The notes below the pieces were generated by a model that searched no databases, was not told the origin of the DNA, and saw only the letters and a list, made by a program, of their open reading frames with translations. Of a stretch of DNA of 28,430 bases, positions 57-22,250 are shown in pieces. Source of the stretch: a virus. The position numbers and the translations under genes were made by a program. Positions within the stretch are counted from its first letter, which is position 1, and the number at the start of each line of letters is the position of its first letter. The stretch covers positions 1 through 28,430 of the IMG/VR virus record IMGVR_UViG_3300029258_001000; one strand, given 5' to 3'.

Positions 57-251
57 ATGCCATTGTACCGTTTCAATCTGATCAGCCTTGGTAGAGTGAT
101 CGGCAGCCAGGAACAGGAATGCACAGACGACCACGCAGCAGTTGCCGAGCAATATGATGGCCTCGAAATTGGACCGTCTAATAGTCGCTGGGTTGAACTG
201 TACAAGGTTGATCCGCGAACAAAACAATTGCTCCCGGTACACGCAGCATGA
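57..251 (+). CDS. Small hypothetical phage protein
   Basis: This ORF encodes 64 aa starting at ATG 57, with a GAGAGG ribosome-binding site about 7 nt upstream. I recognise no family. The protein is soluble and acidic to neutral, with no membrane segment; its C-terminal half (SRWVELYKVDP) could be a small beta fold. Its TGA overlaps the ATG of the next gene (ATGA at 248-251), so the pair is probably translationally coupled. This coupling is the main reason to believe the ORF, together with its position at the head of a row of small same-strand genes, typical of a phage early region. No function is assigned. Confidence 0.65.
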   Translation: MPLYRFNLISLGRVIGSQEQECTDDHAAVAEQYDGLEIGPSNSRWVELYKVDPRTKQLLPVHAA

Positions 252-436
252 CCCATTGGTCTGACGAACACCTAACCATGATCGACGACTGCGAGAAGCG
301 CGAAAGCCGTCTGACTGAGTGGGAAGCCGGCTTTATCGACTCGCTACGGTCTCAGATTGAGCGTGACCGCAGACCAACAGAACGGCAGATCGAGACGCTA
401 GACCGCATCTGGGAACACGCAACAGAAAGAGGCTGA
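248..436 (+). CDS. Small conserved phage protein (…LDRIWE type)
   Basis: This gene encodes 62 aa, starts at ATG 248 and overlaps the upstream stop by 4 nt. The sequence is highly charged and predicted helical. The pattern WEAGFIDSLRSQIER followed by ETLDRIWE resembles small proteins of unknown function common in phages of Pseudomonas and relatives; this is recalled from the family pattern, not searched. It has no signal peptide or membrane segment. It ends 4 nt before the next ATG (441), so it belongs to the same early-type operon. Its role is unknown; a DNA- or protein-binding helical adaptor is possible but not supported by any motif. Confidence 0.7.
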   Translation: MTHWSDEHLTMIDDCEKRESRLTEWEAGFIDSLRSQIERDRRPTERQIETLDRIWEHATERG

Positions 437-440
437 CCGA

Positions 441-599
441 ATGAAGAGACTGCCTATCATCCGACACATCCGCTTCTGGTGGCTACGATACCGCGTTTAC
501 TCCCACGCTTACGAGCTGGGCCGAATTGGCGTAGGCCTCGGCCAGCCGCATCAAGCAGACCTTGAACACCTGGAGAGAATTTGGAGGGGCGAAGCGTGA
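441..599 (+). CDS. Very small basic phage protein
   Basis: This gene encodes 52 aa from ATG 441. The N-terminal half is strongly basic and aromatic (KRLPIIRHIRFWWLRYR), followed by a helical HQADLEHLERIWRGEA tail. It resembles short phage proteins ending in DLxxLxxIWRG, which supports a real gene. It is coupled to the preceding gene by a 4-nt gap and to the following GTG start by overlap (GTGA at 596-599). Its function is unknown. The last codons and the following MTDSS start are embedded in a 19-bp segment (588-606) repeated at 1039-1057, so this gene's end marks a recombination joint. Confidence 0.6.
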   Translation: MKRLPIIRHIRFWWLRYRVYSHAYELGRIGVGLGQPHQADLEHLERIWRGEA

Positions 600-697
600 C
601 GGATTCATCAAAGCGTCACCAGATACCCGAGCTTTGCCGAGGCGATTACGCCTGCGACTTTGATTGGGATGCCTGGACGGCAGATCGGTACTCATAA
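596..697 (+). CDS. Chimeric mini-ORF, probable recombination remnant
   Basis: This 33-aa ORF has a GTG start at 596 overlapping the previous stop. It begins MTDSS, exactly as the gene at 1047 does. Its remaining 26 or so residues (HQIPELCRGDYACDFDWDA…) match the C-terminus of the gene at 1409-1954 with one substitution. At DNA level, 615-692 equals 1872-1949 with a single mismatch (647 T versus 1904 G). The ORF therefore looks like the head of one gene fused to the tail of another after a deletion or recombination event. It may be translated by coupling, but a function is doubtful. Confidence 0.45.
   Translation: MTDSSKRHQIPELCRGDYACDFDWDAWTADRYS
615..692 (+). repeat. 78-bp direct repeat, copy 1
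   Basis: This stretch is near-identical to 1872-1949, with one mismatch at 647/1904. It encodes the HQIPELCRGD…TADRY segment in the same reading frame in both copies. The two copies lie 1257 bp apart in direct orientation, so recombination between them would delete three genes. Confidence 0.9.
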
Positions 698-698
698 C

Positions 699-1030
699 GA
701 CAAGGCTGGACTTTTAACTGGAGATCTACATGCGAGATGAAAAACTCAAAGAGGCGCTAGATTTATTGGAAATATCTGCCGACGACATCCCCGATGATTT
801 GTGGCGCGAGGCAACCAGCGAATGGGTCAAAAATCTCAATGTTTGTATACATGACGGCAAAATACATATTTACGATGATTATTCGGAACGAAAAATCAGT
901 ATTACCAAAGCTATTAAGGAAGGTATGGATTTATCAGACCACGAAGACGATGAGGAAAGATCGAAATGGAAAAAAACTAGCAACGAATTGGCTGCTGCAA
1001 TTCATGACATCGACCTATTTTTGGCCTAAC
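699..1030 (+). other. AT-richer insert bounded by TAACGAC
   Basis: TAACGAC occurs at 695-701 and again at 1027-1033. The enclosed segment carries one gene (730-1029) that is visibly more AT-rich than its neighbours. Removing the segment joins the chimeric mini-ORF directly to the leader of the gene at 1047. TAAC at each edge resembles the conserved inner part of an attC R'' box, but no complete attC fold is visible. Insertion by integron-like or other recombination is an inference. Confidence 0.4.
730..1029 (+). CDS. Acidic orphan protein, AT-rich, probably acquired
   Basis: This gene encodes 99 aa from ATG 730, with GGAG at 720-723 upstream. The protein is very acidic (clusters DDIPDD and DHEDDEERSK) and mostly helical at both ends, with a short basic/aromatic central stretch (HDGKIHIYDDY). 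It has no membrane segment, signal peptide or recognised motif. Base composition is AT-richer than the surrounding genes, and TAACGAC flanks it on both sides, which suggests recent arrival. Size, acidity and helical content would fit a DNA mimic or an inhibitor of a host defence, but that is speculation; the protein could equally be an ordinary orphan. Confidence 0.65.
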   Translation: MRDEKLKEALDLLEISADDIPDDLWREATSEWVKNLNVCIHDGKIHIYDDYSERKISITKAIKEGMDLSDHEDDEERSKWKKTSNELAAAIHDIDLFLA

Positions 1031-1046
1031 GACGGAAAGGCGAAGC

Positions 1047-1397
1047 GTGACGGATTCCTCAAGCGATACCTGCGCACAACAAGCTGCTACTGAGGGTATC
1101 AAAGCGTCAGTCAGCGACAGTGAGCGACGGCAACCCCATATGAACACGCCTGGTTGGCGCCGGATCAACGGCAGAGCGCCAAAACCAGAGCCGCCGATCA
1201 ACACGCCTGTGCTTGTTGTGGCGTGTGTGGTCATTGACCCTGCTGTTGAAATTATGGCATGGACTGGCGACGGTTGGTCGAACGGAACATACGGCCGGTG
1301 GGATATGGCAACAAATGACGGAGACCATATTTACTACTGGATGCCTTTACCTGAGTTCCCAAACACAACCCCAGAAGAACTATGGGGCGACAGCTAA
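1047..1397 (+). CDS. DUF551-like small phage protein
   Basis: This gene encodes 116 aa from GTG 1047 (an alternative ATG at 1140 gives an 86-aa form starting MNTPGW). The C-terminal part has the features of the DUF551 group: an INTPVLVV strand, a GDGWSNGTYGRW segment and the terminal DHIYYWMPLPEFP motif. The family is common in phages and its biochemical role is unknown. The N-terminal ~30 residues are low in structure and share MTDSS with the mini-ORF at 596. The stop lies 11 nt upstream of the next GTG start. A second protein of the same type, shorter and ending HWMPLPEPP, lies at 2041-2247 inside the cassette array. Confidence 0.7.
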   Translation: MTDSSSDTCAQQAATEGIKASVSDSERRQPHMNTPGWRRINGRAPKPEPPINTPVLVVACVVIDPAVEIMAWTGDGWSNGTYGRWDMATNDGDHIYYWMPLPEFPNTTPEELWGDS

Positions 1398-1408
1398 CGG
1401 AGGTAGAT

Positions 1409-1954
1409 GTGAAAATCAAAGCACTAGCCAATGTGGCCTCTGAAATCCCATCAGCACCGGTTGTTGTTGATTTGCAGAATGGTGAACGGGTATCGACAAC
1501 GGGTTTCGTTGTTCGTGACGGAGACGACAACCAGCCGATCATCGTGCTGAAGGCCAAAAGCCTGATTAGCCAGAAACAGAAAGACAGTTTTATAAAAGAT
1601 GAGTTATCCATTTCTGATGACCAACGATTGAGGCCCGCCGTTGTGGCGCCTCTTGAGCAAACTGTTATGAGTCTTGATTTCCGGAAAACGATGTGGGCCG
1701 AGATGAAACCAGACATGTACGACGGCGAGCAGTGCGACCAAGTACGCCCGCAGTGGCAGGGATTCGCGGAAGGCGACATGGACTCGGATTACAGCGAAAC
1801 CCTTGAGCTAGCTGCCAAGCATTTCCCGCCCGGGACAAAGGTGCTGGTACTGGAACCAGAGTGTCCAAAGTGTCACCAGATACCCGAGCTTTGCCGAGGC
1901 GATGACGCCTGCGACTTTGATTGGGATGCCTGGACGGCAGATCGGTACTGTTAA
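1409..1954 (+). CDS. Hypothetical phage protein with Cys-containing C-terminus
   Basis: This gene encodes 181 aa. GTG 1409 is chosen over ATG 1382 because a strong GGAGG (1399-1403) precedes it at good spacing. The N-terminal ~60 residues look like a beta-rich domain (VVVDLQNGERVSTTGFVV). The middle is acidic. The C-terminus carries ECPKC, then C in ELCRGDDAC, then the FDWDAWTADRY ending, a pattern seen in uncharacterised phage proteins and possibly a small metal site. Its last 78 bp are duplicated at 615-692. The stop codon lies within the first attC-like site, so this gene is either the last native early gene or the first cassette. No function is assigned. Confidence 0.7.
   Translation: MKIKALANVASEIPSAPVVVDLQNGERVSTTGFVVRDGDDNQPIIVLKAKSLISQKQKDSFIKDELSISDDQRLRPAVVAPLEQTVMSLDFRKTMWAEMKPDMYDGEQCDQVRPQWQGFAEGDMDSDYSETLELAAKHFPPGTKVLVLEPECPKCHQIPELCRGDDACDFDWDAWTADRYC
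1872..1949 (+). repeat. 78-bp direct repeat, copy 2
   Basis: This is the second copy of the 615-692 sequence, differing at one base. It sits at the very 3' end of the 1409-1954 gene, immediately before the first attC-like site. Confidence 0.9.
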
Positions 1955-2040: not shown

Positions 2041-2247
2041 ATGTGGGAGCCAATTTCCACAGCACCAATGGACCGAAAAACGCTGGTGCTGACATATGAC
2101 CCGAGCGCGCCGGAGGACGAAAGAATCCGAGTTGACCGCTGGGACTACCTTGGCCGCGACGACCTGGACAACAGCGTGTACGGGTGGGATGGATCTCCTA
2201 CTCATTGGATGCCTTTGCCAGAACCTCCGGCCTCCCAACGCTGTTAA
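2041..2247 (+). CDS. DUF551-like protein, first gene of cassette 1
   Basis: This gene encodes 68 aa from ATG 2041, with GGAGAG about 8 nt upstream. The protein begins MWEPISTAPMDRKTLVL, the characteristic 'W-PI-TAP-D' opening of DUF551-type phage proteins, and closes with HWMPLPEPP. Its biochemical function is unknown. It starts 16 nt after the R' core of the preceding attC-like site, as expected for a cassette gene, and is followed after 13 nt by a second gene in the same cassette. It is related in type to the protein at 1047-1397 just outside the array, suggesting that phage genes and cassette cargo share an origin. Confidence 0.75.
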   Translation: MWEPISTAPMDRKTLVLTYDPSAPEDERIRVDRWDYLGRDDLDNSVYGWDGSPTHWMPLPEPPASQRC

Positions 2248-2260
2248 GCGTGGAGGATTT

Positions 2261-2584
2261 ATGAGCAATGCAATTGATGATGTGATTCGAGAACGCCGCC
2301 ATCAGATCGAGCGTGAAGGATTCAACCCCGAACATGATGATAAGCACTTTGGCGGCGAGCTGTCGAAGGCGGCAGCAGGATACGCTGACCACGCGGCTGA
2401 TGTTCTTGCCAATGGAGAGCGCGGCGCAAACTGGGATGCTCCGTGCGACTGGCCTTGGGAAGATCAATACTGGAAACCGACATCTCCACGGCGCGACTTA
2501 GTGAAGGCAGCGGCTCTAATTATCGCCGAGATAGAGAGGATTGATCGAGAGCACTTTGCGCGTACCGAAGAACGCTCTGCGTAA
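2261..2584 (+). CDS. Conserved phage protein (EHDD / RRDLVKAAALIIAEIER type)
   Basis: This gene encodes 107 aa. ATG 2261 is chosen because GGAGG lies at 2252-2256. Conserved features include IRERRHQIEREGFNPEHDD near the N-terminus, a helical AAAGYADHA segment, the WPWEDQYWKP motif and the C-terminal RRDLVKAAALIIAEIERID helix. This combination is very common in proteins of unknown function from phages and plasmids. The mostly helical fold with conserved E/D residues loosely recalls all-alpha NTP pyrophosphatase-like proteins, but I would not claim activity. It is the second gene of cassette 1, with a 50-nt gap before the attC. Confidence 0.8.
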   Translation: MSNAIDDVIRERRHQIEREGFNPEHDDKHFGGELSKAAAGYADHAADVLANGERGANWDAPCDWPWEDQYWKPTSPRRDLVKAAALIIAEIERIDREHFARTEERSA

Positions 2585-2634: not shown

Positions 2635-2692
2635 GCCTAACGGCCAAGTAACCGGCGAGCGTAGCGAGTCCGAGTTGACTTGCTTGTTAGCG
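2635..2692 (+). other. attC: attC site 2
   Basis: R'' is GCCTAAC (2635-2641) and R' is GTTAGCG (2686-2692), preceded by CTT. The inner arms AAGTAAC and GTTGACTT pair with a single unpaired G, the extrahelical base typical of attC bottom-strand folding. A CGG…CCG inner stem encloses GAGCGTAGCGAG. Total length is about 58 bp. Confidence 0.8.
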
Positions 2693-2709
2693 TGAATTTT
2701 GGAGGTAAC

Positions 2710-3210
2710 ATGAACAGAGTAATGCTTGATTTGGAAACAATGGGAAACGGCACTAATGCCGCGATTATCGCTATCGGGGCGGCCCGTTTTGATGTCGGTG
2801 AAATTACCGATGAATTTTATGCGGTGGTTGATCTGGCCTCATCGGTTGCGGTTGGACTGGAGATTGATGCCAGTACCATCATGTGGTGGATGAAGCAGAG
2901 CGACGATGCAAGGAAACAGTTTGAGCGTGATAACGTTCCGTTGGTGGAGGCGTTGAAACAATTTTCCGAATGGGTTGGAGAAGATGCGGAAGTGTGGGGA
3001 AATGGGGCTGCGTTTGATAACGCAATATTGAGCAACGCATACCGAAAATGCGGCATGGAACAGCCGTGGAAATTCTGGAACGACCGCTGCTATCGAACTG
3101 TAAAGAGTATGAACCCGTACGTGAAAATGGTACGTCAGGGTGTGTATCACAGAGCTGTTGATGACGCGAAGAGCCAAGCTGACCACCTGATGCGGATGCT
3201 TTCACGCTAA
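2710..3210 (+). CDS. DEDDh 3'-5' exonuclease, Rv2179c/DUF5051-like (cassette 2)
   Basis: This gene encodes 166 aa. ATG 2710 is preceded by GGAGG (2701-2705) and was chosen over the in-frame ATG at 2680, which lies inside the attC. Exonuclease motifs are complete: ExoI DLET (D7, E9), ExoII WGNGAAFDN (D103), and ExoIII HRAVDDA (H147, D152). The small size and the MWWMKQSDDAR segment fit the single-domain Rv2179c-like 3'-5' exoribonuclease group found in phages and mobile elements. It is expected to degrade single-stranded or structured nucleic acid from the 3' end in the cytoplasm; substrate preference is not readable from sequence. The stop codon TAA is part of the R'' box of the following attC, a hallmark of a cassette gene. 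Confidence 0.9.
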   Translation: MNRVMLDLETMGNGTNAAIIAIGAARFDVGEITDEFYAVVDLASSVAVGLEIDASTIMWWMKQSDDARKQFERDNVPLVEALKQFSEWVGEDAEVWGNGAAFDNAILSNAYRKCGMEQPWKFWNDRCYRTVKSMNPYVKMVRQGVYHRAVDDAKSQADHLMRMLSR

Positions 3211-3265
3211 CGATCAGGGTAAGCGGGCGCGATTTTTGCGCTCCGCTTGACCCGCTTGTTATGCG
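3205..3265 (+). other. attC: attC site 3
   Basis: R'' GCTAAC (3206-3211) overlaps the preceding stop codon, and R' is GTTATGC (3258-3264). L'' GGGTAAGCGG and L' CCGCTTGACCC pair perfectly except for one extrahelical G, the orientation signal of attC sites. The apical part (GCGCGATTTTTGCGC) closes as a hairpin. This is the clearest attC in the window, about 60 bp long. Confidence 0.88.
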
Positions 3266-3282
3266 TTTTTGAGGGTAGAAAT

Positions 3283-3633
3283 ATGAGTGGACAAAATTGT
3301 AAACACGGATTGCCTCGTGACGAATGCGCACGTTGCTTCAACGAGTTTTCCATCCCTGTTGATGCGTATTTGGATGCGCGAGAAGACCGCGCTTTTGCTG
3401 ATTTGAGGGCAAGCGGTGGAACCGTTGACGCGATTGAGGCCAGCATGCGGAATTTAGCAAAATGCCCTTTTTGCGGGAACCGGCAATTGATCGTGAGCGA
3501 ACATGACTGCGGGGACAACGTGCGCGAGCATGCAGATATTGTCGTGTGTGGTGATTGTGGGGCACGCGGCCCCTGGGGCGATAACGAAACTGATGCAATG
3601 GATCTCTGGAATAGGCGTGACGGGATTGTTTGA
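3283..3633 (+). CDS. Lar-type restriction-alleviation zinc-ribbon protein (cassette 3)
   Basis: This gene encodes 116 aa. The start is ATG 3283 (GAGGG upstream), since the longer in-frame start lies in the attC. Residues ~61-111 form a Lar-like zinc ribbon: CPFCG (C61, C64), a hydrophobic strand, CGDCGARGP (C89, C92), and the closing DAMDLWNRR. An additional N-terminal CKHGLPRDECARC may bind a second metal. The Lar family is named after the Rac-prophage protein that modulates type I restriction-modification; many phage homologues are untested. Here the likely role is protecting incoming phage DNA from host restriction, inferred from family and context. TGA at 3631 abuts the R'' of attC 4. Confidence 0.8.
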   Translation: MSGQNCKHGLPRDECARCFNEFSIPVDAYLDAREDRAFADLRASGGTVDAIEASMRNLAKCPFCGNRQLIVSEHDCGDNVREHADIVVCGDCGARGPWGDNETDAMDLWNRRDGIV

Positions 3634-3634
3634 C

Positions 3635-3769
3635 GCATAACGCCAAGCTATGCGGCGGCTGGTGCGCAGCGGCAAGCTTGCGCAATAATGCCGAAGGCAT
3701 GCGCGAGCTGCCGCGTAGCACCAGGCGTCCGAGTGAGCGAAGCGAACGGCATGAGCGACTTGTTATGTG
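3635..3769 (+). other. attC: attC site 4, long form
   Basis: R'' is GCATAAC (3635-3641) and R' is GTTATGT (3762-3768), preceded by GCGACTT. The ~135-bp interior is rich in inverted repeats (for example GCATGCGC/GCGCAATAATGC and CGAGTGAGCGAAGCGAACG), comparable in length to long VCR-type attC sites. The long fold distinguishes it from the ~60-bp sites either side. Confidence 0.75.
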
Positions 3770-4055
3770 CTGCGGCGCACGGAAACACCCAGCCTTCCGC
3801 GGCCTGCGGTGGTTTGCCCGGCATAGACCAGTTGAAAACAGCACGGCATGAAAAATGACCGACCTTTTTCAGCAATGAACCTTCCTTTTCCAACGTGCCT
3901 TCCTTTCTCCGATTTTGCCTTCGCGAACCCCGGAGGAACAGCCCCCGGAATCGCTGCGCTTCAGCGCCCACCATCCGCCACCAGGCTTTCAAGTTCGCAA
4001 GGACTATTCCTACGAAGTGCCACACTGGCCAGCCCATGTTGTGCTTTACGCACAT
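3648..4055 (-). CDS. Possible antisense cassette ORF, doubtful
   Basis: This ORF spans 135 codons from an ATG lying within the R'' box of attC 5 to a stop inside attC 4. The first ~60 residues include a tryptophan-rich hydrophobic stretch followed by a strongly basic run (RGSRRQNRRKE) and could encode a short membrane-anchored peptide. The last ~45 residues are simply the complement of the attC. No RBS is evident. It is kept only because the sense strand of this cassette offers nothing better. Confidence 0.2.
   Translation of the reverse strand: MCVKHNMGWPVWHFVGIVLANLKAWWRMVGAEAQRFRGLFLRGSRRQNRRKEGTLEKEGSLLKKVGHFSCRAVFNWSMPGKPPQAAEGWVFPCAAAHNKSLMPFASLTRTPGATRQLAHAFGIIAQACRCAPAAA
3770..4051 (+). 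other. Cassette 4: no convincing sense gene
   Basis: Between attC 4 and attC 5 lie about 280 bp. A + strand frame from ATG 3848 gives 69 aa of compositionally biased sequence (many P, S, F) without a good RBS. On the - strand an ORF opens at 4055 (its ATG is inside the R'' of attC 5) and runs through the cassette and into attC 4. Its early part (WPVWHFVGIVLANLKAWW) looks more protein-like, but its tail is translated attC. I see no RNA gene or promoter I can defend. ORF-less and antisense-ORF cassettes are known in integrons; this is one of those, or a decayed gene. Confidence 0.5.
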
Positions 4056-4115
4056 AACGACTTTATTAACGCGACCCGGCGAAGCCGGGGTCGCTCGTTG
4101 AATTACTTGTTAGGC
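4052..4115 (+). other. attC: attC site 5
   Basis: R'' is ACATAAC (4052-4058) and R' is GTTAGGC (4109-4115), preceded by ACTT. The inner arms CTTTATTAACG and CGTTGAATTACTTG pair with an extrahelical base, and GCGACCCGGC/GCCGGGGTCGC forms a strong central stem. Total length is about 64 bp. Confidence 0.82.
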
Positions 4116-4132: not shown

Positions 4133-4429
4133 ATGAAACACGTACTTACCGAAGCACTGAATGATGCGGTTACTGACTGGGATGGTGATTTCCATTTTGA
4201 GATCGAACAGACCGACACCTATGGCGATGAGTTTTTCTTTGATGTGACTGTGCGCCTGAACCGTCGCAAGGTGGAGCAATACTTTCCCGCTAAGGTGGTG
4301 ATAGACCGCGATCTCGATACCGAGTTTTGCTACATGGAGTGGGGCGAGGATTCATGGGAAATGATCGACCAATCGGCCTTGTTCACCTGGCTGTGGTTTG
4401 ACCTCGTGGACAAGCATGAGGCTGCCTAA
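4133..4429 (+). CDS. Acidic orphan protein (cassette 5, intI-proximal)
   Basis: This gene encodes 98 aa from ATG 4133, 18 nt after the R' of attC 5. The protein is acidic and aromatic, with a likely beta-rich middle (DFHFEIEQTDTYGDEFFFDVTV, VVIDRDLDTEFCYMEW) and an amphipathic, Trp-rich C-terminal helix (ALFTWLWFDLVDKHEA). It has no membrane signal or recognised family. Single-gene position, start close to an attC and stop (TAA) inside a GCCTAAC box are all typical of cassettes. Charge and size would be compatible with an inhibitor or DNA mimic, but this is unsupported. It is the last cassette before intI and lacks a complete attC of its own. Confidence 0.75.
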   Translation: MKHVLTEALNDAVTDWDGDFHFEIEQTDTYGDEFFFDVTVRLNRRKVEQYFPAKVVIDRDLDTEFCYMEWGEDSWEMIDQSALFTWLWFDLVDKHEAA

Positions 4430-4474
4430 CAGGTATTCACACGCAATACGGCATATTGAACAAGGCGCACAATA
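4424..4474. other. Array-intI junction: half attC or candidate attI
   Basis: GCCTAAC (4424-4430) is a perfect R''-type box, and read on the other strand it is GTTAGGC, a perfect core. No matching R' box follows before intI; the remaining 44 bp contain only TTGAACAAGG. The site could be a truncated attC, or an attI whose core has joined the array in inverted orientation. No LexA-type CTGT-N8-ACAG box is visible. Confidence 0.45.
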
Positions 4475-5467
4475 ATGAACATCTCGCAGATTGAGCGAAA
4501 AGCCCGCGACGTTTGCCGCCGCCGCCATCTTTCTCTTGCCACTGAGAGAACCTACCTGCACTGGATAAGGCGTTTTGCCGGCTGGTGCCGTCAACGTTCC
4601 GATGATTCTCGAGAAGCCAGGATTGTCAGCTTTCTCACTTACCTGGCGAGCCAGCGGCACGTGTCGGCCAGCACTCAGAGCGTTGCTTTGAACGCGATTA
4701 ATTTTCTGTACAAAGACGTGCTGCAGCTGGAACTCGAAGATTTTTCTAGCTTCGTGCGATCGAAGAAACCGAAACGCCTACCTACCGTGCTTTCACGTGA
4801 AGAAACGCTTGCGGTGATCAATCAGTTACGCGGCATGAAATGGATCATCGCGTCAATCATGTACGGCTCAGGGCTGCGCCAGCGCGAGGTGTTGAATTTA
4901 CGCGTGCAGGATATTGATTTCAATCGCCTCACCATTACTGTGCGCAGCGGAAAGGGCGCGAAAGACCGGGTTGTGATGCTCCCCACATTCCTGGTCAAAC
5001 CCATCGACACCCACATCGAAGAGGTCAGACGTCTTCACAACGCAGACTTGACCGCCGGATTTGGCGACGCTTACATGCCGCATGCCTTGGCACGAAAATA
5101 CCCAAGCGCAGTGAAGGAGTTCGGATGGCAGTTTCTTTTTCCCGCATCTAGGATCAGTGAAGACCCACGAGAACGATCTGAGCAGCGCCGGCACCACATT
5201 CATCAATCCGCTGTATCCAAAGCTATCACAGCTGCTCGGCGTGCCGCTGGAATCGATAAACGGGTAACCGCCCATACCTTCCGCCATTGTTTTGCGACCC
5301 ACCTATTAGAGGCTGGCGCCGATATTCGCACAGTGCAGGAACTACTCGGGCACGCCAACCTTGAAACCACGATGATCTACACTCACGTGACAAGCACCGG
5401 CGCGATTTCGACCCAAAGCCCGATAGATTTCCCACCGAACGTGACACCGATCCGAGTCGCAAGCTGA
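4475..5467 (+). CDS. intI: Integron integrase, IntI family tyrosine recombinase
   Basis: The protein is 330 aa, full length for IntI (IntI1 is ~337). The N-terminal SAM-like DNA-binding domain spans ~residues 15-100 (LATERTYLHWIRRFAGWC, SASTQSVALNAINFLY). The catalytic domain has R135 (GSGLRQRE), K160/K163 (SGKGAKDR), H267 and R270 (AHTFRHCFATH), H293 (ELLGHANLETT) and nucleophile Y302 (IYTHV). The diagnostic IntI insertion lies at ~201-224 (HALARKYPSA…GWQFLFPA), absent from Xer and phage integrases and used to handle extrahelical attC bases. All catalytic residues are intact, so it is probably active on the adjacent attC sites. It reads in the same direction as the cassettes. Its stop overlaps the phage int start by one base, making an intI-int translational pair. 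Only a weak AAGG precedes the start. Confidence 0.93.
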   Translation: MNISQIERKARDVCRRRHLSLATERTYLHWIRRFAGWCRQRSDDSREARIVSFLTYLASQRHVSASTQSVALNAINFLYKDVLQLELEDFSSFVRSKKPKRLPTVLSREETLAVINQLRGMKWIIASIMYGSGLRQREVLNLRVQDIDFNRLTITVRSGKGAKDRVVMLPTFLVKPIDTHIEEVRRLHNADLTAGFGDAYMPHALARKYPSAVKEFGWQFLFPASRISEDPRERSEQRRHHIHQSAVSKAITAARRAAGIDKRVTAHTFRHCFATHLLEAGADIRTVQELLGHANLETTMIYTHVTSTGAISTQSPIDFPPNVTPIRVAS

Positions 5468-6642
5468 TGTCACCAAAACGCCAACGAAAAAACCGCGACT
5501 TGCCACCAAACCTCTATTACACCACCAATCCGCGCGGTCCTTATTACTACTACCGTAACCCGCAGACCGGGAAGCGCACCTCGTTGGGCTACGACAAGGC
5601 AGCAGCGATCGACGCGGCAAACCAGGTCAACGCCCACTTAGCAGTGGGCGCCGCCATGATGCGGAAGATCATGACCGGCCAGGCCGAACAGGTGACAGTC
5701 ACCGAGTACCTGCAGCGCTACCGCGACGAGATCCTGCCAGCGCGTCGTGTGAAAGGCCATCCGCTCAGCGAAGCCTACCTCACCGAATGCCGTCGGATCC
5801 TAGACAGATTCGAGGCCGAGATCAGCGGGCACCTGGCACTGGCTGATATCACCCAGGCTCAGCTTGCTGCCTACCTGACAAGGCGCAGCACCGCTGAATC
5901 CTCTAACCAACATCGCAAGGTGCTCGCCGGGCTGTACAAACACGCCGTGAGCGATGGAATCCTCAGCGACAACCTAATCGCCAAGATCGTGCCACGCGAC
6001 ACAGGCCTACGCACCCGGGAACGTCTCAGCCTCGACGACTACAAGGAAATTTTCGCCGAGGCATCGCAATCGATAAAAAACGCGATGGACCTCTCCCTTA
6101 ACGCGCTGCAGCGGCGCAGTGATATCCAGAAATGGCAGTTCAAGGACCAGCGAGACGGGTTCGCCTACGTGATCCAGAGCAAAACCCGCAAACACGGCCC
6201 CAGCGCCTGGCTGCGGATACCACTAAATATGCCGCTGGCGCACTCTGAGCGTGGCGATCGCACCCTCGATGACCTGATCCGCCGCTGCCGTGACGACATC
6301 CCCTGCCCGTTTCTGGTACACAAACGACCGGAGCGCGTGAAAAAGAGCAAGGAAAAGGACCATCCGTTCCAGCTTTCATGCAAGCAGATTTCTGACGGAT
6401 TTGCCTTGGCCAGGGAGGCCTGCGGGCGGTTCGAGCAGCTGACACCGGCACAGCGCCCAACCTTCCACGAGATCATCGCCCTTGGCGAACACCTACGCCA
6501 GGAACAGGGATGGACTACCCGGGAGATACAGGTGCTACGCGGCCACACCACCGAGCGGATGACGGCGCATTACCTGGAGGGCCACACGTGGACCACAGTG
6601 ACGATTCCGGCGGTTTACGGGGACACAAAAAAGCCCCGATAA
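5467..6642 (+). CDS. int: Lambda-type phage integrase with altered catalytic Arg
   Basis: The protein is 391 aa. Residues ~8-58 match the lambda Int arm-binding domain (RDLPPNLYY…YYYYRNPQTGKRTSLGYDK). Residues ~75-175 form the core-binding domain and ~185-380 the catalytic domain. Catalytic residues visible are R216 (LQRRSDI), K239 (QSKTRK), H334 (TFHEII), H360 (LRGHTTERM) and Y369 (AHYLEG). Relatives have HExR at the second Arg; here the codon at 6475-6477 encodes Ile (I337), so the R-H-R-Y set appears broken. ATG 5467 overlaps the intI TGA by one base. The gene ends ~75 bp from the tRNA-Val-derived attP core and is flanked by arm-type repeats matching its arm-binding domain. Its expected role is site-specific integration and excision at tRNA-Val, if still active. 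Confidence 0.93.
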   Translation: MSPKRQRKNRDLPPNLYYTTNPRGPYYYYRNPQTGKRTSLGYDKAAAIDAANQVNAHLAVGAAMMRKIMTGQAEQVTVTEYLQRYRDEILPARRVKGHPLSEAYLTECRRILDRFEAEISGHLALADITQAQLAAYLTRRSTAESSNQHRKVLAGLYKHAVSDGILSDNLIAKIVPRDTGLRTRERLSLDDYKEIFAEASQSIKNAMDLSLNALQRRSDIQKWQFKDQRDGFAYVIQSKTRKHGPSAWLRIPLNMPLAHSERGDRTLDDLIRRCRDDIPCPFLVHKRPERVKKSKEKDHPFQLSCKQISDGFALAREACGRFEQLTPAQRPTFHEIIALGEHLRQEQGWTTREIQVLRGHTTERMTAHYLEGHTWTTVTIPAVYGDTKKPR

Positions 6643-6680: not shown

Positions 6681-6718
6681 AACCAATTCCAGAAACTCGC
6701 GTAAGCCTCTGTTTTAAT

Positions 6719-6763
6719 TGGTAGGCGCGAGAAGACTCGAACTTCCGACCCCCACCATGTCAA
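6719..6763 (-). other. attP: attP core: 3' half of a tRNA-Val(GAC) gene
   Basis: Read on the - strand this is TTGACAT (anticodon loop with GAC), GGTGG (3' anticodon stem), a variable loop, GGAAG-TTCGAGT-CTTCT (T arm), CGCGCCT (acceptor 3' strand) and ACCA. The 5' anticodon stem is not continued (CTTAT instead of CCACC), so this is not a tRNA gene but a 45-bp identity block that would restore the host tRNA after integration. Phage genes on both sides make attP the best reading. Confidence 0.85.
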
Positions 6764-6959: not shown

Positions 6960-7199
6960 TCATTCGAGCCCGAGTTCCATGCGCTCCAGGTCGGTCATCG
7001 CCCTCCCGGCCTTGGCTTCGTCACCGGCCTTGATGACAGCTAGCTCTGAATGCGTTTTCAGCAGCGCCCGCTCGATGGCGAGGTTGTGCAGGTTTGCGTC
7101 AGTCACATCGGTGTAACCCGAAAAAACCTTCTGGCTGACCGACATGATCTCGTTGTTGTCTGCCAGTTGCTCCACGGTGATTCGCAGTTGATATGCCAT
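6960..7199 (-). CDS. Small hypothetical late protein
   Basis: This gene encodes 79 aa starting at 7199. The protein is helical and charged, with no membrane segment: an N-terminal basic strand (MAYQLRITVEQLADNN) followed by a long helix (NLHNLAIERALLKTHSELAVIKAGDEAKAG). It is the last gene of the late operon, 8 nt after the holin-like gene. No family is recognised. Its place among lysis-region genes suggests a morphogenesis or lysis accessory, but there is no direct support. Confidence 0.6.
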   Translation of the reverse strand: MAYQLRITVEQLADNNEIMSVSQKVFSGYTDVTDANLHNLAIERALLKTHSELAVIKAGDEAKAGRAMTDLERMELGLE

Positions 7200-7207
7200 T
7201 TTTGCCT

Positions 7208-7582
7208 CTATGGTTGATCATCGGCTCGACGCCGATATTGAAGTTTCCCGTCACACGATTTCCCCGGGGTCTTCCACCCGAGGTAGGTCCGCAGTCCGAT
7301 CACGAAGCTCAGCATCGCAACCGCGTTGAAATAATCGAAAAGCATCCAACCAAGGCTGACCTCCTCGCCAACAACCGAGTTGAAATCCTCGGTTATCCAA
7401 TGCGACTGGAGCACCAGAAAACTGCCAGCTTGGCAAAGCAGCGCGATCAGAAACGCGGCAACAGGAACATAGAGCGTTCTCGATATGCGGACACTGCACA
7501 GCATGAATCCGGTGCGTATCACCATCACGACGACTGCCGCGTAAACCCCGAGGCTGAGCATGTTCCACACATACAGGGTCAT
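7208..7582 (-). CDS. Holin-like small membrane protein
   Basis: This gene encodes 124 aa. The start at 7582 is chosen because it overlaps the upstream stop (ATGA) and leaves a clean N-terminus (MTLYVWNML); a longer in-frame start would add a charged, low-complexity leader. It has three predicted membrane segments (LSLGVYAAVVVMVI, YVPVAAFLIALLC, YFNAVAMLSFVIGL) and a basic C-terminal tail (YRRRADDQ), the general layout of a class I holin. Paired with the coiled-coil/TM protein just upstream, it probably belongs to the lysis module, forming inner-membrane lesions. Holins share little sequence, so this call rests on topology and position. Confidence 0.6.
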   Translation of the reverse strand: MTLYVWNMLSLGVYAAVVVMVIRTGFMLCSVRISRTLYVPVAAFLIALLCQAGSFLVLQSHWITEDFNSVVGEEVSLGWMLFDYFNAVAMLSFVIGLRTYLGWKTPGKSCDGKLQYRRRADDQP

Positions 7583-7872
7583 TTTGTGGCCCCGAAAATG
7601 TACGCCATCGCCATCGCCACCGCGCTCGAACCGACAATCCCCGCCAGCCAAACGACGCCTTTCTGCACCAACTGCGCGTTGCTCAGGCCCAGCTCCAGGT
7701 CATGCACCTTGGACAGCAGCAGGTCGAGCTTGGGCGTGTTCCGCGCCTGAGCCTCGAGCAGGTCGGCCATTCGTTGCGTGGAGATAATCAGTTGCCTGAT
7801 TTCATCCGACGCTTTCTCCGCGTCCCTCTCCAGCCGTGTCAGTCGGGTTTCGATATGGATTTCGTCGCTCAC
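7579..7872 (-). CDS. Coiled-coil protein with C-terminal membrane anchor (XhlA-like)
   Basis: This gene encodes 97 aa. Residues ~8-65 form a charged amphipathic/coiled-coil region (RLTRLERDAEKASDEIRQL, LLSKVHDLELGL), followed by one hydrophobic segment (GVVWLAGIVGSSAVAMAMAYIF) at the C-terminus. This layout resembles XhlA-type haemolysin/holin-associated proteins and phage proteins that accompany a holin. It overlaps both neighbours by 4 nt, indicating coupled translation with the holin-like gene downstream. Its likely role is holin partner or antiholin in the inner membrane. The alternative is a membrane-anchored accessory protein unrelated to lysis. Confidence 0.6.
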   Translation of the reverse strand: MSDEIHIETRLTRLERDAEKASDEIRQLIISTQRMADLLEAQARNTPKLDLLLSKVHDLELGLSNAQLVQKGVVWLAGIVGSSAVAMAMAYIFGATK

Positions 7873-8369
7873 TCGGCATCCACTAGCTCAAAAAATCGCG
7901 TGGCAACATCGAACACGAACGGATTGTCGGCTTCGGCGGCTTCTTTTCGAACTTGGTCACGGGCTGAGATCATCGCGATCTTTGCCGCATCGAGCGCGTC
8001 TGCTTTCGTGATCACCCTGGTGCTGTACTCAATAGGGTCGTACCCATGGTCAACGAAACGCTGCAACTGACGGCCGATGACGCCGTTATCCAGGTACGCC
8101 CGCGCATCGCTTTCCAGTTCCCGCCAGTCGAGAGTTTCGGCGTAGGGGTATTTGGATACCAGCGCGTCCATTCGTTGCTTGTGGACCGCGTAGGCCATAT
8201 CGACGTTGTAGTCGCGCACCGCTTGCTCTGCCTGCTCTTTGGTGATCTCCGGTATTGGCTCGTCGTGCGCCCAATACACCATCTCTTCACCGCCGTCCAC
8301 CGGCTTGAGCTGACAGTCCCAGTAACCCATGCGGTCAAGCGCGATTGCGGTGCCCTGCGGATAGCTCAT
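7869..8369 (-). CDS. Tail-fibre-associated or assembly-type protein
   Basis: This gene encodes 166 aa. The start at 8369 (MSYPQGTAIALDRMGY) is preceded by AAAGGAG and overlaps the fibre gene stop. The protein begins with a short beta segment (WDCQLKPVDGGEEMVYW) and continues as a mostly helical domain (EQAEQAVRDYNVDMAYAVHKQRMDALVSKYPYAETLDWRELESDARAYL). Small helical proteins directly after a fibre gene are often fibre chaperones or contain DUF4376-like domains; the YPYAETLDW…EARAY-type pattern fits that group. A role in fibre folding is inferred from position and pattern. Confidence 0.55.
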   Translation of the reverse strand: MSYPQGTAIALDRMGYWDCQLKPVDGGEEMVYWAHDEPIPEITKEQAEQAVRDYNVDMAYAVHKQRMDALVSKYPYAETLDWRELESDARAYLDNGVIGRQLQRFVDHGYDPIEYSTRVITKADALDAAKIAMISARDQVRKEAAEADNPFVFDVATRFFELVDAE

Positions 8370-9946
8370 GCGAGTTGCTCCTTTACGACAAGATGTTGGG
8401 TATTCCATGGCGCAACACCTAGATTATCCACACCCTGGAATCGCACCCCAATAGCGTCACCCGGCGCGACATCTCTGTAATCAAATGGAAAGGCCATCAC
8501 GCAGCGAGTTGCCGACCCCATCGCCCGGTTATCAGAATTGAACGCGGTTGCCGTCGTGAAATCGTAGACCTGCACTTTGACGTTGGTGCCATCTGGCACC
8601 GCGTTGTTATTCGATGCGTAGTTTGCAGACCCGGTGAGATTCATCCGACGGCGAGGCGCAACCGTTGAGGCTGTGGGCGCTGCCGGGTCGCCAGGGTCGC
8701 CCGCTACCGCGATGAACCCATCGTTGAAGGCTGTAGCCGGCATGTTCCCGTGATCCACCCAACTGGACCCGGAATAGGTTTGCGACGTCGATCCATCCCC
8801 TTCAATGCGCACCGCGCCGGGCATGCGCCCGTCCAAGTGTCTCGGGATAATCCAGCCGTCCAGGGATGAGTTCGGAACCAAGGTCGCCGACTCACCTGCG
8901 GTGTAATAGCGAAAGCGATCGTCCTCTGAGGCAGTTTCTGCGAAAAACTTCACCCCGGTGTCGCCTTTCACTTTAAGCAGGTAGGTCGAATTTCCAACCT
9001 CGATGTACAGAGAGATTCTGTCTGCGCTGGATGCTGGGGTGGGCAATACGAGGTGCACGTCAGCAGTCAGGCTGCTGAGGTCCACGTTGTAGTGCGTGTT
9101 CAGCGCTGCGGCTATATCTGACGAAGTCGGGGCCTGCGAAGACTCCGAGAGCACTACAACAGATTGCAGTTTGCTTTGGTCAGCGGTCGTATAGGGAGCA
9201 GTGGTCGCGTCAAGGACCGTCTTGTTCGCATGAGTGTGCCGGGCTGCGGTATTGGCCGTCACATCGCTGTTGGCAGACACCTGGGTCTGCAGAGTTGCTA
9301 TCAGCTGGTACTGCGAGTGGGGATGGCCTGCCGCCTCGTGATCGTCCACAGCCGCTGCCGCAGCACCGATATCATCATACAGCCCCTCGTGGCTGCCCCA
9401 CCCATAGGCTACGTTCCAGTTGCCGATATCTGACAATGAGATAGAGGCGGCAGGGCTTGCCAGGAAAACCGGGTCAGTCTCCGAGAAGCTTTTCAGGTAG
9501 CCCGCTAGGTTATGGTTGCCCCACCCATAGGCTGCGTTCCAGTTGCCGACATCTGACAACGAGATAGAGGCGGCAGGGCTTGCCAGGAAAACCGGGTCAG
9601 TCTCCGAGAAGCTTTTCAGGTAGCCCGCTAATCTATGGTCTCCCCATCCATACGCAATCACGCCGGCGGCGATGTCTACGAGAACGGCTTCTGCAATCTT
9701 GCTAGAAGTGACTGCGCCGACATCGATAACCCATACGGTTCCGCCGCCACTAACCGTGATGTCGCCCTTGTCGCCGTCGGTCACTCCACCACCGCCAACA
9801 CCGCCTGGTGGACCCTGCGGACCCTGCTGGACGACCTCGATGATGTCAGGCGCTGTTTCGATGACGACAACCTCGGAGCCATCGTCTATTTCGATTGTGC
9901 GGAACTCGGTTTCGGTCACGACGATGACGCTATCGCCAGTGCTCAT
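8366..9946 (-). CDS. Tail fibre with collagen-like and tandem repeats
   Basis: The protein is 526 aa. The N-terminal ~40 residues are acidic, then there is a collagen-like GPQGPPG (~43-49) and a glycine run, a common hinge in fibres. At ~98-185 come two full ~41-residue repeats and a partial third: AYGWGNHNLAGYLKSF, SETDPVFLASPAASISL and SDIGNWN, the AYGWG/ETDPV repeat seen in trimeric phage fibres. A middle section resembles trimeric stalk sequence, and residues ~250-526 form a beta-rich C-terminal region likely to contact the receptor. Start 9946 overlaps the upstream stop by 4 nt. It is expected to be a host-range determinant at the virion tail tip; the actual receptor cannot be read. Confidence 0.85.
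   Translation of the reverse strand: MSTGDSVIVVTETEFRTIEIDDGSEVVVIETAPDIIEVVQQGPQGPPGGVGGGGVTDGDKGDITVSGGGTVWVIDVGAVTSSKIAEAVLVDIAAGVIAYGWGDHRLAGYLKSFSETDPVFLASPAASISLSDVGNWNAAYGWGNHNLAGYLKSFSETDPVFLASPAASISLSDIGNWNVAYGWGSHEGLYDDIGAAAAAVDDHEAAGHPHSQYQLIATLQTQVSANSDVTANTAARHTHANKTVLDATTAPYTTADQSKLQSVVVLSESSQAPTSSDIAAALNTHYNVDLSSLTADVHLVLPTPASSADRISLYIEVGNSTYLLKVKGDTGVKFFAETASEDDRFRYYTAGESATLVPNSSLDGWIIPRHLDGRMPGAVRIEGDGSTSQTYSGSSWVDHGNMPATAFNDGFIAVAGDPGDPAAPTASTVAPRRRMNLTGSANYASNNNAVPDGTNVKVQVYDFTTATAFNSDNRAMGSATRCVMAFPFDYRDVAPGDAIGVRFQGVDNLGVAPWNTQHLVVKEQLA
9398..9643 (-). repeat. Two 123-bp tandem repeats inside the fibre gene
   Basis: 9398-9520 and 9521-9643 are near-identical direct repeats of 123 bp (41 codons), so slippage or recombination changes repeat number without shifting frame. 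A further partial, more diverged unit adjoins. Conservation at DNA level suggests recent duplication. Confidence 0.85.
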
Positions 9947-10284
9947 CTGACGACCTCAGGTGTGCAGATCACCAGGCCCTCTAGCAGGCGAGTTACCTTG
10001 GTTCCGCTGTCGATCTCTAGCGCGTAGTGTCCGCTGTCTATCTCAAGCGCCGAAGTGACATCATTGTTGATCTGAATCCTGATAGTACCCAAAACACCGC
10101 CAAGCGTGATTCCTGCCAAGTGAGTGAGATTCACCAGGGCCGCATCGGCTGTTGGGTTTTTTCTGATTTGGAAAGCGGCTGTGTACCCGGTCAGATCAAC
10201 CGGATTGCCAGCGCCGTCCTTGTAGGTGAGATTGAGATCGACGTCCTCACCTTTGTTGATCGTGATCGTGTACTTTCCAGGCAT
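9943..10284 (-). CDS. BppU-N-like tail/baseplate linker protein
   Basis: This gene encodes 113 aa. The start at 10284 (MPGKYTITINKGED) is chosen because it follows the upstream stop closely and removes an Arg-rich leader that does not look like protein. The pattern ITINKGEDVDLNLTYKD, then DLTGYTAAFQIRKNPTADA, then a 'GTIRIQINNDVT…SGHYALEIDS' ending matches the N-terminal domain of BppU-like baseplate upper proteins, a beta-sandwich that attaches fibres to the tail tip. Its 4-nt overlap with the fibre gene supports a role as the fibre's docking partner. Confidence 0.75.
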   Translation of the reverse strand: MPGKYTITINKGEDVDLNLTYKDGAGNPVDLTGYTAAFQIRKNPTADAALVNLTHLAGITLGGVLGTIRIQINNDVTSALEIDSGHYALEIDSGTKVTRLLEGLVICTPEVVR

Positions 10285-10285
10285 G

Positions 10286-10531
10286 TTACTTTTCCTTCCG
10301 CCTATCTTCGATGACCTTGTTGATGCGCTCCGGGGTCCGCAGCGGCGCGCCGATCTCTTGCACGAAGGAATCCTCAGCCGCAATGTCCTCATCAGCCTGG
10401 ATTACCTTCCGATGGTATGAGCGGCTGATCTCTACGCCGTCCTCCTCGATAATGGTATCGGTACGAACGTTCATGCTACCGTCAGGCCGCACCCGAATCT
10501 CACCAATTTCAACTCGCTTTGTAATTACCAT
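10286..10531 (-). CDS. Small conserved tail-region protein
   Basis: This gene encodes 81 aa starting at 10531. A short beta-rich N-terminus (ITKRVEIGEIRVRPDGSMNVR) is followed by TIIEEDGVEISRSYHRKVI and a charged C-terminal helix (TPERINKVIEDRRKEK). This 'REDG…SYHR' type of small protein is regularly found among tail genes of siphoviruses and Mu-like phages; its role is unknown. It sits 1 nt before the linker gene start, so both are translated from one message. It is probably a virion or assembly component of the tail tip. Confidence 0.65.
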   Translation of the reverse strand: MVITKRVEIGEIRVRPDGSMNVRTDTIIEEDGVEISRSYHRKVIQADEDIAAEDSFVQEIGAPLRTPERINKVIEDRRKEK

Positions 10532-10534
10532 GAC

Positions 10535-11401
10535 TCAATCCTCAGTTATGTATGCGCCGGATATTCTCAACTCAAACGCTGATGTAATTTCGCTGGCATC
10601 AAGCCCAGTTGGGCCAGAAGTCGAATCGAATACGGTGGGAAAGATTTTACTTGCACTTGAAAATTCCGCCACAGCGCCAGCAAGCGCCGAGGCAGCCGCC
10701 AAGTTCGCTCCAGCAAAGTAGCCGACTTGCAGTGACGGACGATCATCACCCGCCGCGATTTTGTTGAATGGCAACCCTGCCACATGTATGAGCCCGGACA
10801 AACTACCGACCGAGTTGAGCTTTATTCTCATGTCCACAAAAACCAAGGTGCCGATTTTTCGGTAGGCACCATACTGAACATCAAAGTCGGCGGGAGATAG
10901 GGTGTTAGTACCGTCGGATAACGTAGGTGTCCAGGCGCCCTCCTCGTAGTCATCAAGGGTGTGCGCGTCGCTGCTGGACAGCCCGTCAAGCTTGATGCCA
11001 CCCTGCAATAGCGTCATCCCGGAAGAATCGAAAGTTGCCGCGTTGTCTTTGGTGCCTGCGCCCTCCTTCACCACCAGCTGTCCGGCGGATTCGTCCCACT
11101 TCAAGAAGGCGTTGGTGCCAACCCGGAAATCGAAGTCCCCATCAGCTTTAATAACAAGGTTGCCGCCCGTGGTGTATCGCGCCCCAGCCCATAGCTGGAG
11201 GGTTCCACCAGAGGTATCAATGGCCGCGATGGCCGTGCCAGATCCGAGGCGAGTTCCTGTTTCCTCGAACAGCGCCCGGTTCGCTATGAGCAGGTCGCCT
11301 TCGATATTCACTCCGCACGGCATACGATAGGTATCGCTGCCCTGCGGAACCTCTAGCTGTGGGGTTGCCTCGTTGAGTGCAACGACGTCACGTTCTGCCA
11401 T
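10535..11401 (-). CDS. Tail appendage or secondary fibre protein
   Basis: The protein is 288 aa. The N-terminal ~35 residues (VALNEATPQLEVPQGSDTY) are of the kind that dock to the tail tip. Residues ~40-150 form a beta-rich stalk resembling fibres with 'LTLQLW…FLKWDES' repeats and ending LDGLSSSDAHTLDDYEEG. The C-terminal ~130 residues start WTPTLSDGTN and contain YGAYRKIGTLVFVDMRIKL, a jelly-roll-like appendage segment frequent at the end of phage fibres. It lies between the J-like gene and the small tail protein. It likely binds host surface structures together with the larger fibre. Confidence 0.75.
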   Translation of the reverse strand: MAERDVVALNEATPQLEVPQGSDTYRMPCGVNIEGDLLIANRALFEETGTRLGSGTAIAAIDTSGGTLQLWAGARYTTGGNLVIKADGDFDFRVGTNAFLKWDESAGQLVVKEGAGTKDNAATFDSSGMTLLQGGIKLDGLSSSDAHTLDDYEEGAWTPTLSDGTNTLSPADFDVQYGAYRKIGTLVFVDMRIKLNSVGSLSGLIHVAGLPFNKIAAGDDRPSLQVGYFAGANLAAASALAGAVAEFSSASKIFPTVFDSTSGPTGLDASEITSAFELRISGAYITED

Positions 11402-11402
11402 T

Positions 11403-14966: not shown

Positions 14967-15385
14967 TACTCAACCCCCGGAATGGCGTACACGCCACGAA
15001 TGCGATCCAGCAGCCTGCCGGCCAGCCGGGTCTCGACAACCCCACCACGCTGATCACTGCCGTAGGCGTGTATTACCGAATCCTGTGAAGCCAGAATTGC
15101 AAGGTGTTGAGGCTCACCACCCCAGGCGAATACCAGGATGTCACCCGGCTTGCGGTCAAGAAACTTGCGCGGCTCCAGCGCCTCCTGCAGCAGGTTGCGC
15201 ATTCGCCCGTCCGGGATGCGAGGATAGTCGTTGATCGGCGTGTGATTTACCGCAATCCCAAGCTCATTCACAACGCCGAGGATGAATCCATAACAATCCA
15301 CGCCATCCCTGGTCTTGCCTTGATGGATAAAAGGAACGCCCTTCCAGCTTCGCGCGCAGTCGACAATTTGCTGCCTGTTGGTCAT
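14966..15385 (-). CDS. NlpC/P60-family tail-tip peptidase
   Basis: The protein is 139 aa, one complete NlpC/P60 domain. The catalytic Cys is in DGVDCYGF (C31), the His in QHLAIL (H94), and a third polar residue is near IHAYG (H106). PGDILVF is the conserved strand before the His. In siphoviruses with DUF2460/DUF2163 tails this protein sits at the tail tip and probably cleaves peptidoglycan stem peptides during DNA entry or helps assembly, like lambda gpK. It overlaps DUF2163 upstream by 4 nt and the J-like gene downstream by 1 nt. It is not the lysis endolysin by position. Confidence 0.88.
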   Translation of the reverse strand: MTNRQQIVDCARSWKGVPFIHQGKTRDGVDCYGFILGVVNELGIAVNHTPINDYPRIPDGRMRNLLQEALEPRKFLDRKPGDILVFAWGGEPQHLAILASQDSVIHAYGSDQRGGVVETRLAGRLLDRIRGVYAIPGVE

Positions 15386-18913: not shown

Positions 18914-19172
18914 TTTTCACCGCCAGCATGTCGAGCCCTTTCATGAACTTCCGCGACTGTTCTTCGCGTATCGTGTCCTGATCTTTATAGAAAAAATCGC
19001 CGACGTGCATGGGTTGCTGGCGGCGCCCTCTGTTAGCGTTGAAGGTCATGGACAGCATCTGGGCATGATGCCAGTTGTCTCGCCATGCACCGAACGGCTC
19101 CAGTCGCCAGTAAGCCATCCACTCGGTCAGCTCGTCAGACGGCATGCGATCCTGAAGATCGTGCACCGTCAT
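18906..19172 (-). CDS. T-like part of the tail assembly chaperone
   Basis: This frame encodes 88 aa if started at ATG 19172, but it is more probably translated only as the C-terminal part of the frameshift fusion. TVHDLQDRMPSDELTEWMAYWRLEPFGAWRDNWHHAQ is the signature of phage tail assembly protein T / DUF4035. A basic C-terminus (NRGRRQQPMHVGDFF…) follows. It overlaps the tape-measure start by 8 nt, placing it immediately before its binding partner. Confidence 0.8.
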   Translation of the reverse strand: MTVHDLQDRMPSDELTEWMAYWRLEPFGAWRDNWHHAQMLSMTFNANRGRRQQPMHVGDFFYKDQDTIREEQSRKFMKGLDMLAVKNG

Positions 19173-19953: not shown

Positions 19954-19963
19954 TCTTTTGTCC

Positions 19964-21672: not shown

Positions 21673-21723
21673 GTGATTCCCTCTTTCCGACAAGGGCGAC
21701 CTGGCCGCCCTTGTCAGCAACAG

Positions 21724-22170: not shown

Positions 22171-22225
22171 TTCTCAATTCCTCTATTCAGTTCTTCAGTT
22201 CAAATCCACTGTTGAGCGCGGTACC

Positions 22226-22245
22226 GGGCGGGTTTACGCCCGCCC
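22226..22245. repeat. REP-like palindrome between capsid and head gene
   Basis: GGGCGGG (22226-22232) and CCCGCCC (22239-22245) form a perfect 7-bp GC stem with a 6-nt loop; GTAGGGCGGGC at its - strand edge resembles bacterial REP units. It lies in the 80-bp gap just after the capsid stop. It has no T-tract, so it is more likely an mRNA 3'-end stabiliser or attenuator for capsid expression than a full terminator. Confidence 0.6.
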
Positions 22246-22250
22246 TACGA

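Follow-up and report, generated by a model that had tools for sequence, protein, structure and literature searches.

The window—the whole stretch of DNA analysed here, 28,430 bp in length—is a complete IMG/VR virus record in which a gene for a Lar-family zinc-ribbon protein lies in an array of integron cassettes upstream of an integron integrase gene. The array is set within the following phage genes and sites.

57..1954, + strand: co-directional small ORFs, probably the phage early operon (ORF map)
4475..5467, + strand: integron integrase IntI, 330 aa (TIGR02249, 390 bits against a cut-off of 265)
5467..6642, + strand: lambda-type phage integrase, whose start overlaps the intI stop by one base (PF09003, E 1.6e-13)
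6718..6763, − strand: attP core, matching the tRNA-Val(GAC) 3′ end at all 46 bp (tRNA comparison)
6960..28430, − strand: late genes for tail, capsid, S49 protease, portal, and TerL (gene-family matches)

The phage setting

The window carries the features of a temperate tailed phage—TerL, portal, capsid, and tail genes, together with the lambda-type integrase and attP—which bears out the phage context asserted when the sequence was first read. The tRNA-Val(GAC) to which the 46-bp stretch is identical is gammaproteobacterial, phage DNA flanks the stretch on both sides, and a tRNA search of the window detected no intact tRNA; the stretch reads as an attP in its excised form. Among 369 genomes, the tRNA-Val 3′ end gave one exact match and four matches with two mismatches, a hint at the host at the level of class only. 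The window TerL was not found in the three genomes of the genus with the tRNA-Val match, and a scan with the window phage integrase found no relative.

A second IMG/VR contig of the same phage (L043) is 100% identical to the window over 12,276 bases, and a 320-base match places its other end near window position 9627, leaving the integron outside it. The two records also share an end point, at window position 28430 and L043 position 1: each stops precisely at the start codon (ATG) of the ORF lying upstream of TerL, a coincidence suggestive of trimming to the limits of a gene. In the early region, a 95-bp direct repeat (609-703 and 1866-1960, 94% identical) forms the ends of two units and looks like a duplicated gene end (part of phrog_24515).

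The joining of integron and phage might be regarded as an assembly artefact, being present in a single record with the sister contig stopping short of the integron. However, the intI and phage integrase genes overlap by one base, and the order of array, intI, integrase, and late genes recurs in other records, including L019, in which the late genes lie on the other strand; an artefact is thus highly improbable.

The cassette array

The two ends of an integron cassette carry boxes that are reverse complements of each other, and one arm of an attC site contains an additional unpaired base, from which the direction of the site can be told. On this basis, the array upstream of intI is made up as follows.

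2041..2584, + strand: DUF551 gene and phage-type gene (phrog_6628), probably one more cassette, whose left attC is degenerate (Pfam, PHROG; boundary deduced)
2635..2692, − strand: attC of the exonuclease cassette (R′ box with two mismatches; overlooked by attC scanners)
2707..3210, + strand: cassette ORF, Rv2179c-like exonuclease (PF16473, E 5.9e-53)
3205..3264, − strand: attC of the Lar cassette (box pairs, polarity)
about 3211..3640, − strand by attC polarity, with its ORF on the + strand: Lar cassette between its predicted integrase cleavage points (box pairs, polarity test; ends deduced)
3283..3633, + strand: 116-aa zinc-ribbon protein of the Lar family that has an additional C-x-H...C-x-x-C cluster towards its N-terminus (PF14354, TIGR03655, phrog_599, alignment)
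3635..3768, − strand: attC separating the Lar cassette from the next cassette towards intI (box pairs, polarity)
4052..4115, − strand: attC of the intI-proximal cassette (scan, box pair, polarity)
4133..4429, + strand: cassette ORF, 98 aa, with weak DUF440 similarity below the cut-off (Pfam)
4422..4474, − strand: probable attI, consisting of the core GTTAGGCAG (minus) and the stretch up to the intI start (position, box pair)

The boxes of the Lar cassette, GTTATGCGT at 3258 and ACGCATAAC ending at 3641, are exact reverse complements, and the Lar ORF is the sole ORF between them. Three consecutive exact 9-nt box pairs are present in the array (3258/3641, 3762/4058, and 4109/4430), as compared with 0.14 per sequence expected from 200 shuffles; a fourth array pair (2686/3211) is 8 nt long, and one more 9-nt pair (207/1169) lies outside the array. 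The exact cleavage points of the cassettes were deduced by the G|TT rule. The cassette at 3641-4057 contains no convincing ORF, its longest frame, of 135 aa, being on the minus strand. With respect to detection, two early attC scanners missed most of the window sites and a strict one found none, and a MAFFT alignment of ten attC sites was poor. The identification of the Lar gene as an integron cassette, proposed from the sequence alone in the original prediction, is nevertheless upheld by the box pairs, the attC sites, and the adjoining IntI.

The attC sites of the window show the R″/R′ boxes, hairpin, and polarity of integron attC sites. All four have minus polarity, the canonical one where intI is placed as here. 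The box of the first cassette has its partner in the core at 4422-4430, which, given the minus polarity of the four sites, is probably that of attI. A reading with a truncated last attC and with intI at the wrong end of the array was dropped when the polarity test made that site the probable attI. The arrangement usual for integrons, although not strictly required of them, has cassette ORFs running in the direction of attC, and is not that of the window: the cassette ORFs with family support (exonuclease and Lar) lie on the + strand, as do the early ORFs, intI, and the phage integrase gene. Thus, with attC polarity being minus, the Lar ORF opposes it; neither this inversion nor the breadth of the class of phage integrons that shows it was part of the original prediction.

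The Lar-family protein

The ORF at 3283-3633 begins with ATG and contains the motifs CPFCG, CGDCGARGP, and LWNRR. Its product passes the curated cut-offs of both PF14354 (Pfam; E 3.4e-11, 43.7 bits against 28.6) and TIGR03655 (NCBIfam; 49.6 bits against 39.6), and is matched by the "Lar-like" phrog_599 (E 4.6e-11). The Lar-type zinc ribbon that had been recognized by eye (CPFCG, CGDCGARGP, WNRR) is therefore confirmed by the motifs and two curated cut-offs, as is the extra N-terminal Cys cluster, which consists of C6, H8, C15, and C18. In an alignment of four Lar proteins, the four cysteines of the zinc ribbon and the WN.R end are invariant in all four, and the N-terminal cluster is absent from the three others. 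The predicted structure is weak (mean pLDDT 58.9, with the best blocks at 76-81). Scans of viral contigs yielded few relatives, and tblastn against phage and plasmid records yielded no homologue; the lone PDB sequence match, to troponin C (E 0.21), was judged to be due to chance.

As judged from its sequence, the window protein shares with the Lar family just the zinc-ribbon domain, with the Pfam profile spanning residues 57-112, about 55 of the 116 residues. The family name itself leans mainly on Rac Lar, and an anti-restriction role for the window protein is predicted from homology. Lambda Ral, to which the family's function is tied by analogy, is described as making type IA enzymes modify unmodified DNA faster (PMC12707154; PMC10286901).

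A general zinc-ribbon regulator or nucleic-acid binder, to which the family name has been over-extended, would also account for a profile match confined to some 55 residues, for the weak scores that several unrelated Pfam zinc-ribbon models give on the protein, and for an N-terminal cluster found in the window alone among the four aligned members. However, two curated Lar cut-offs are passed, PF14354 outscores every other Pfam zinc-ribbon model by more than 25 bits, and sister arrays carry DNA-modification and counter-defence genes, as described below; a general regulator is therefore possible, but we consider it doubtful.

Cassette polarity in phage and chromosomal arrays

The attC polarity test gave the expected result for 18 of 20 control sites in chromosomal arrays lying to the left of a + strand intI. 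The viral set comprised 84 loci, 45 of which had at least two scored attC sites (40 after removal of redundancy), and the chromosomal control comprised 48 of 80 loci, chosen mainly by flank length, of which 25 had at least two scored attC sites. After redundancy removal, 184 of 194 viral cassette genes ran against attC polarity, versus 6 of 91 chromosomal ones (Fisher test, 3.6e-53); by locus, 36 of 37 viral and 1 of 22 chromosomal arrays were inverted. Before redundancy removal, the counts obtained with an intI-seeded gene caller were 217 reversed and 10 not (45 viral loci) versus 6 and 85 (25 chromosomal loci). Within 5 kb to the left of viral intI genes, 203 attC candidates were found in the real and 16 in the shuffled sequences, and scanning the reverse strand flipped the attC polarity, which argues against a bias of the method. 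Thus, through the inversion of their ORFs, the cassette genes point the same way as intI and the early genes of the phage.

The exceptions are few. Among the 10 of 194 phage genes running the classical way, six are in L167, a locus in which the gene-caller seed was out of frame and the strand stayed wrong, and which was retained in the counts. Three of the six reversed chromosomal genes sit in one probable prophage. The chromosomal exception, L129, has inverted cassettes, an adjoining phage-type integrase, and an IntI falling inside the phage IntI group. This locus (L129, 3402-7513), from a Burkholderiales MAG, is a probable prophage and a possible source of a cultured system.

For L003, L007, and L028, self-training of the gene caller led to a wrong strand assignment, which changed once training was pooled or seeded with intI. 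For L025, in which intI is frameshifted, no genes were counted in the intI-seeded run and seven reversed genes in another count; attC boundaries were set by eye in L025 and with a relaxed threshold in L034 before polarity scoring. The L025 intI (3923-4941) lies in two overlapping frames, probably reflecting inactivity or a sequencing error, and the array still holds a Lar gene.

In two other phage integrons, L042 and L016, the array lies downstream rather than upstream of intI; L016 has one attC site of each polarity, and in L042 both the attC sites and the ORFs run with intI. L042 (KX853513.1, 4680-9434) is from virus Rctr41k of a DAMO/AAA enrichment, with an IntI annotated as xerD followed by attC sites and an array C5 methyltransferase; the record makes no mention of an integron.

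Distribution of phage integrons and phylogeny of IntI

Used as a query, the window IntI retrieved 39 viral loci, and a profile of phage IntI sequences gave 334 matches in IMG/VR viral contigs, 80 of which were kept; by these matches, integron-carrying phages are numerous in IMG/VR. The phage status of most records is given by the IMG/VR label and by markers (GpA TerL in 15 of 42, phrog_2 TerL in 7 of 40). At 44 of 76 viral loci, as compared with 1 of 39 bacterial loci, a gene for a phage-type recombinase is located no more than 3.5 kb past intI. Some IMG/VR contigs carry what we take to be Xanthomonas/Pseudomonas-like IntI; their interpretation as plain host sequence was rejected, as gene maps show early and late phage genes. 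Three closely alike phages (L193-L195) contain shuffled stretches upstream of intI, and the genes after intI in these phages look like those of ParB and SSB.

On the IntI tree, the phage label requires at least three changes, and the IntI proteins of the window, L225, L230, and L034 are separate from most of the phage rows, with those of the window and L034 forming long branches. From the number of changes, the inversion of cassettes seems to have arisen more than once.

The window IntI falls in a mostly chromosomal part of the tree, as would be expected if the phage had passively taken up a piece of a host's chromosomal integron that serves it no function, and prophage cases of this kind have been described for Vibrio and Shewanella (PMC9892861). 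Such a fragment would not, however, be expected to have inverted ORFs, an intI gene overlapping that of the phage integrase, phage-type cargo, and a layout shared with many other phages, and we regard this origin as very unlikely.

Probable exchange of cassettes, and their cargo

Stretches of 200-2000 bp that are 75-100% alike were found at differing distances from intI across records: 580 bp (100%) at 58 versus 581 bp in L164 and L165, 405 bp (93%) at 3519 versus 422 bp in L193 and L205, and 457 bp (93%) at 3799 versus 34 bp in L154 and L165. These differing positions suggest that cassettes have been exchanged between the phages. Within one array, ORFs of identical printed sequence at L007 positions 7238-7570 and 8313-8645 represent a duplicated cassette.

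Lar is rare in phage arrays, with scores above the cut-off in 2 of the 97 other distinct records (1 of 40, 1 of 40, and 0 of 21 across three sets, less four that overlap). Both genes (in L025 and L205) are less than 4 kb upstream of intI and on its strand; in L205, the two boxes enclosing the Lar ORF, GTTATGCCTC and GAGGCATAAC, form an exact pair of 10 nt, and the L025 gene lies between attC-like sites judged by eye. The relatives' cassettes, which it had been suggested should be surveyed for defence-linked functions, do carry these: besides the two Lar genes, DNA methyltransferases, Mom, and a Tad2-like protein were found. In a Pfam run on 196 phage array proteins, the matches included N6_N4 methylase (5), Dam (3), D12 (1), Mom (1), Tad2-like (1), PAPS reductase (2), Rv2179c exonuclease (2), and Lar (3), the last not being a frequency because the Lar genes of the window, L025, and L205 were added by hand, as were three other window cassette proteins. 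An earlier set of 79 phage array proteins contained one match each to Aca2-like, C5 methylase, and MqsA-like families, and L034 contains a phrog_954 DNA methyltransferase; these phage protein sets omit a few minus-strand array genes (in L167, L177, L193, L218, and L224). Methyltransferases and Lar are common early genes of phages, and the array may thus hold just ordinary phage cargo.

The chromosomal cassettes examined encode mostly toxin-antitoxin families: the 84 proteins include BrnT, ParE, PIN, VapB, and HicB-type families along with a TIR effector, and no DNA methylase is among the 25 of 75 families listed. This prevalence bears on whether the window protein is a RalR-like DNase toxin, or part of an addiction module stabilizing the array in the manner of chromosomal toxin-antitoxin cassettes. 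Rac Lar is also known as RalR, which has been reported to act as a toxin with DNase activity and to be paired with an RNA antitoxin (PMC4147584). The window protein, however, matches the RalR equivalog model NF007260 poorly (16.7 bits against a cut-off of 113), and the phage array families listed show no toxin-antitoxin signature except for the one MqsA-like match, making a toxin function unlikely.

Comparison with known integrons

In bacterial integrons, the Pc promoter in the platform reads the cassettes outward (PMC11551772). Sedentary chromosomal integrons share with the window an IntI, attC polarity away from intI, and cassette box pairs, but differ in that their ORFs are oriented with attC (85 of 91 genes) and in their toxin-antitoxin-rich cargo. 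In the "reverse" integrons of Treponema and others, intI runs in the direction of the cassettes. As in the window, intI and the cassette ORFs are thereby co-directional; in the window, however, the array is 5′ of intI and attC polarity is classical, the ORFs alone being flipped. L042 resembles the "reverse" type.

Class 1 integrons in phage-plasmids (PMC9600943) and resistance genes in prophages (PMC8386436) are reportedly the topics of other publications; judged by titles and the opening lines of abstracts, PMC9892861 was the one publication on phage integrons among those listed in the literature searches. Phage integrons, with attC sites and cassettes in phage genomes, have been published, and methyltransferase cassettes were proposed to help phages against restriction (Qi 2023, PMC9892861). 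As far as the accessible text of that study goes, its complete integrons come from hosts (Vibrio, Shewanella) or, in P1, belong to class 1, with the others being CALINs, and, unlike the window, they are described without an intI–integrase module, inverted cassettes, or Lar cargo. No report of these three features was found in the literature searched, which was mostly open-access and without bioRxiv preprints, and, on this search, both the class with inverted cassettes and the carriage of Lar as a cassette appear to be new.

Rac Lar (RalR) and lambda Ral are phage-borne like the window Lar, and Rac Lar belongs to the same zinc-ribbon family, with the likeness seen via the profile only; the window protein differs in its 116 aa, its extra N-terminal Cys cluster, and its location in an integron cassette.

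Proposed function of the phage integron

The gene family, the cassette, its attC polarity, the phage context, the parallels in other phages, and the cargo elsewhere can be read from the sequences themselves. We propose, with a probability of roughly 0.6, that the window contains a phage-adapted integron in which inverted cassettes are read by phage early transcription, with the Lar cassette providing an early protein that lessens restriction. IntI would recombine cassettes at the attI site just upstream of its own gene, and a cassette would enter there with its ORF pointing to intI, so that each new cassette would become the last of the early-region transcript. This transcript would continue through the array into intI and the phage integrase gene; that is, phage transcription from the left, and not a classical Pc promoter, would read the array, which would constitute an exchangeable part of the phage early operon. 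The Lar product would be made early and would lessen host restriction, possibly, on the model of Rac Lar and lambda Ral, through faster modification of the incoming DNA by a type I enzyme. In this scheme, we infer the recombination activity, the early promoter, the transcript, and the anti-restriction activity together with its target.

More broadly, it seems rather probable that such integrons form a widespread, hitherto undescribed class in temperate phages, acquired on more than one occasion and having cassettes inverted with respect to attC, with captured genes joining the early operon and a swappable counter-defence kit (Lar, methyltransferases, Mom, and Tad2-like proteins) being exchanged between phages. 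If so, phages would have domesticated the integron, with the same rewiring in several IntI lineages, and would possess a standing means of swapping counter-defence genes.

Integrons have been reported as stores of bacterial defence genes, a role that a phage counter-defence array would mirror. A sharp question is also raised, namely the origin of cassettes whose ORFs oppose attC polarity. Furthermore, if the proposal is true, host-range adaptation through cassette exchange would become directly testable.
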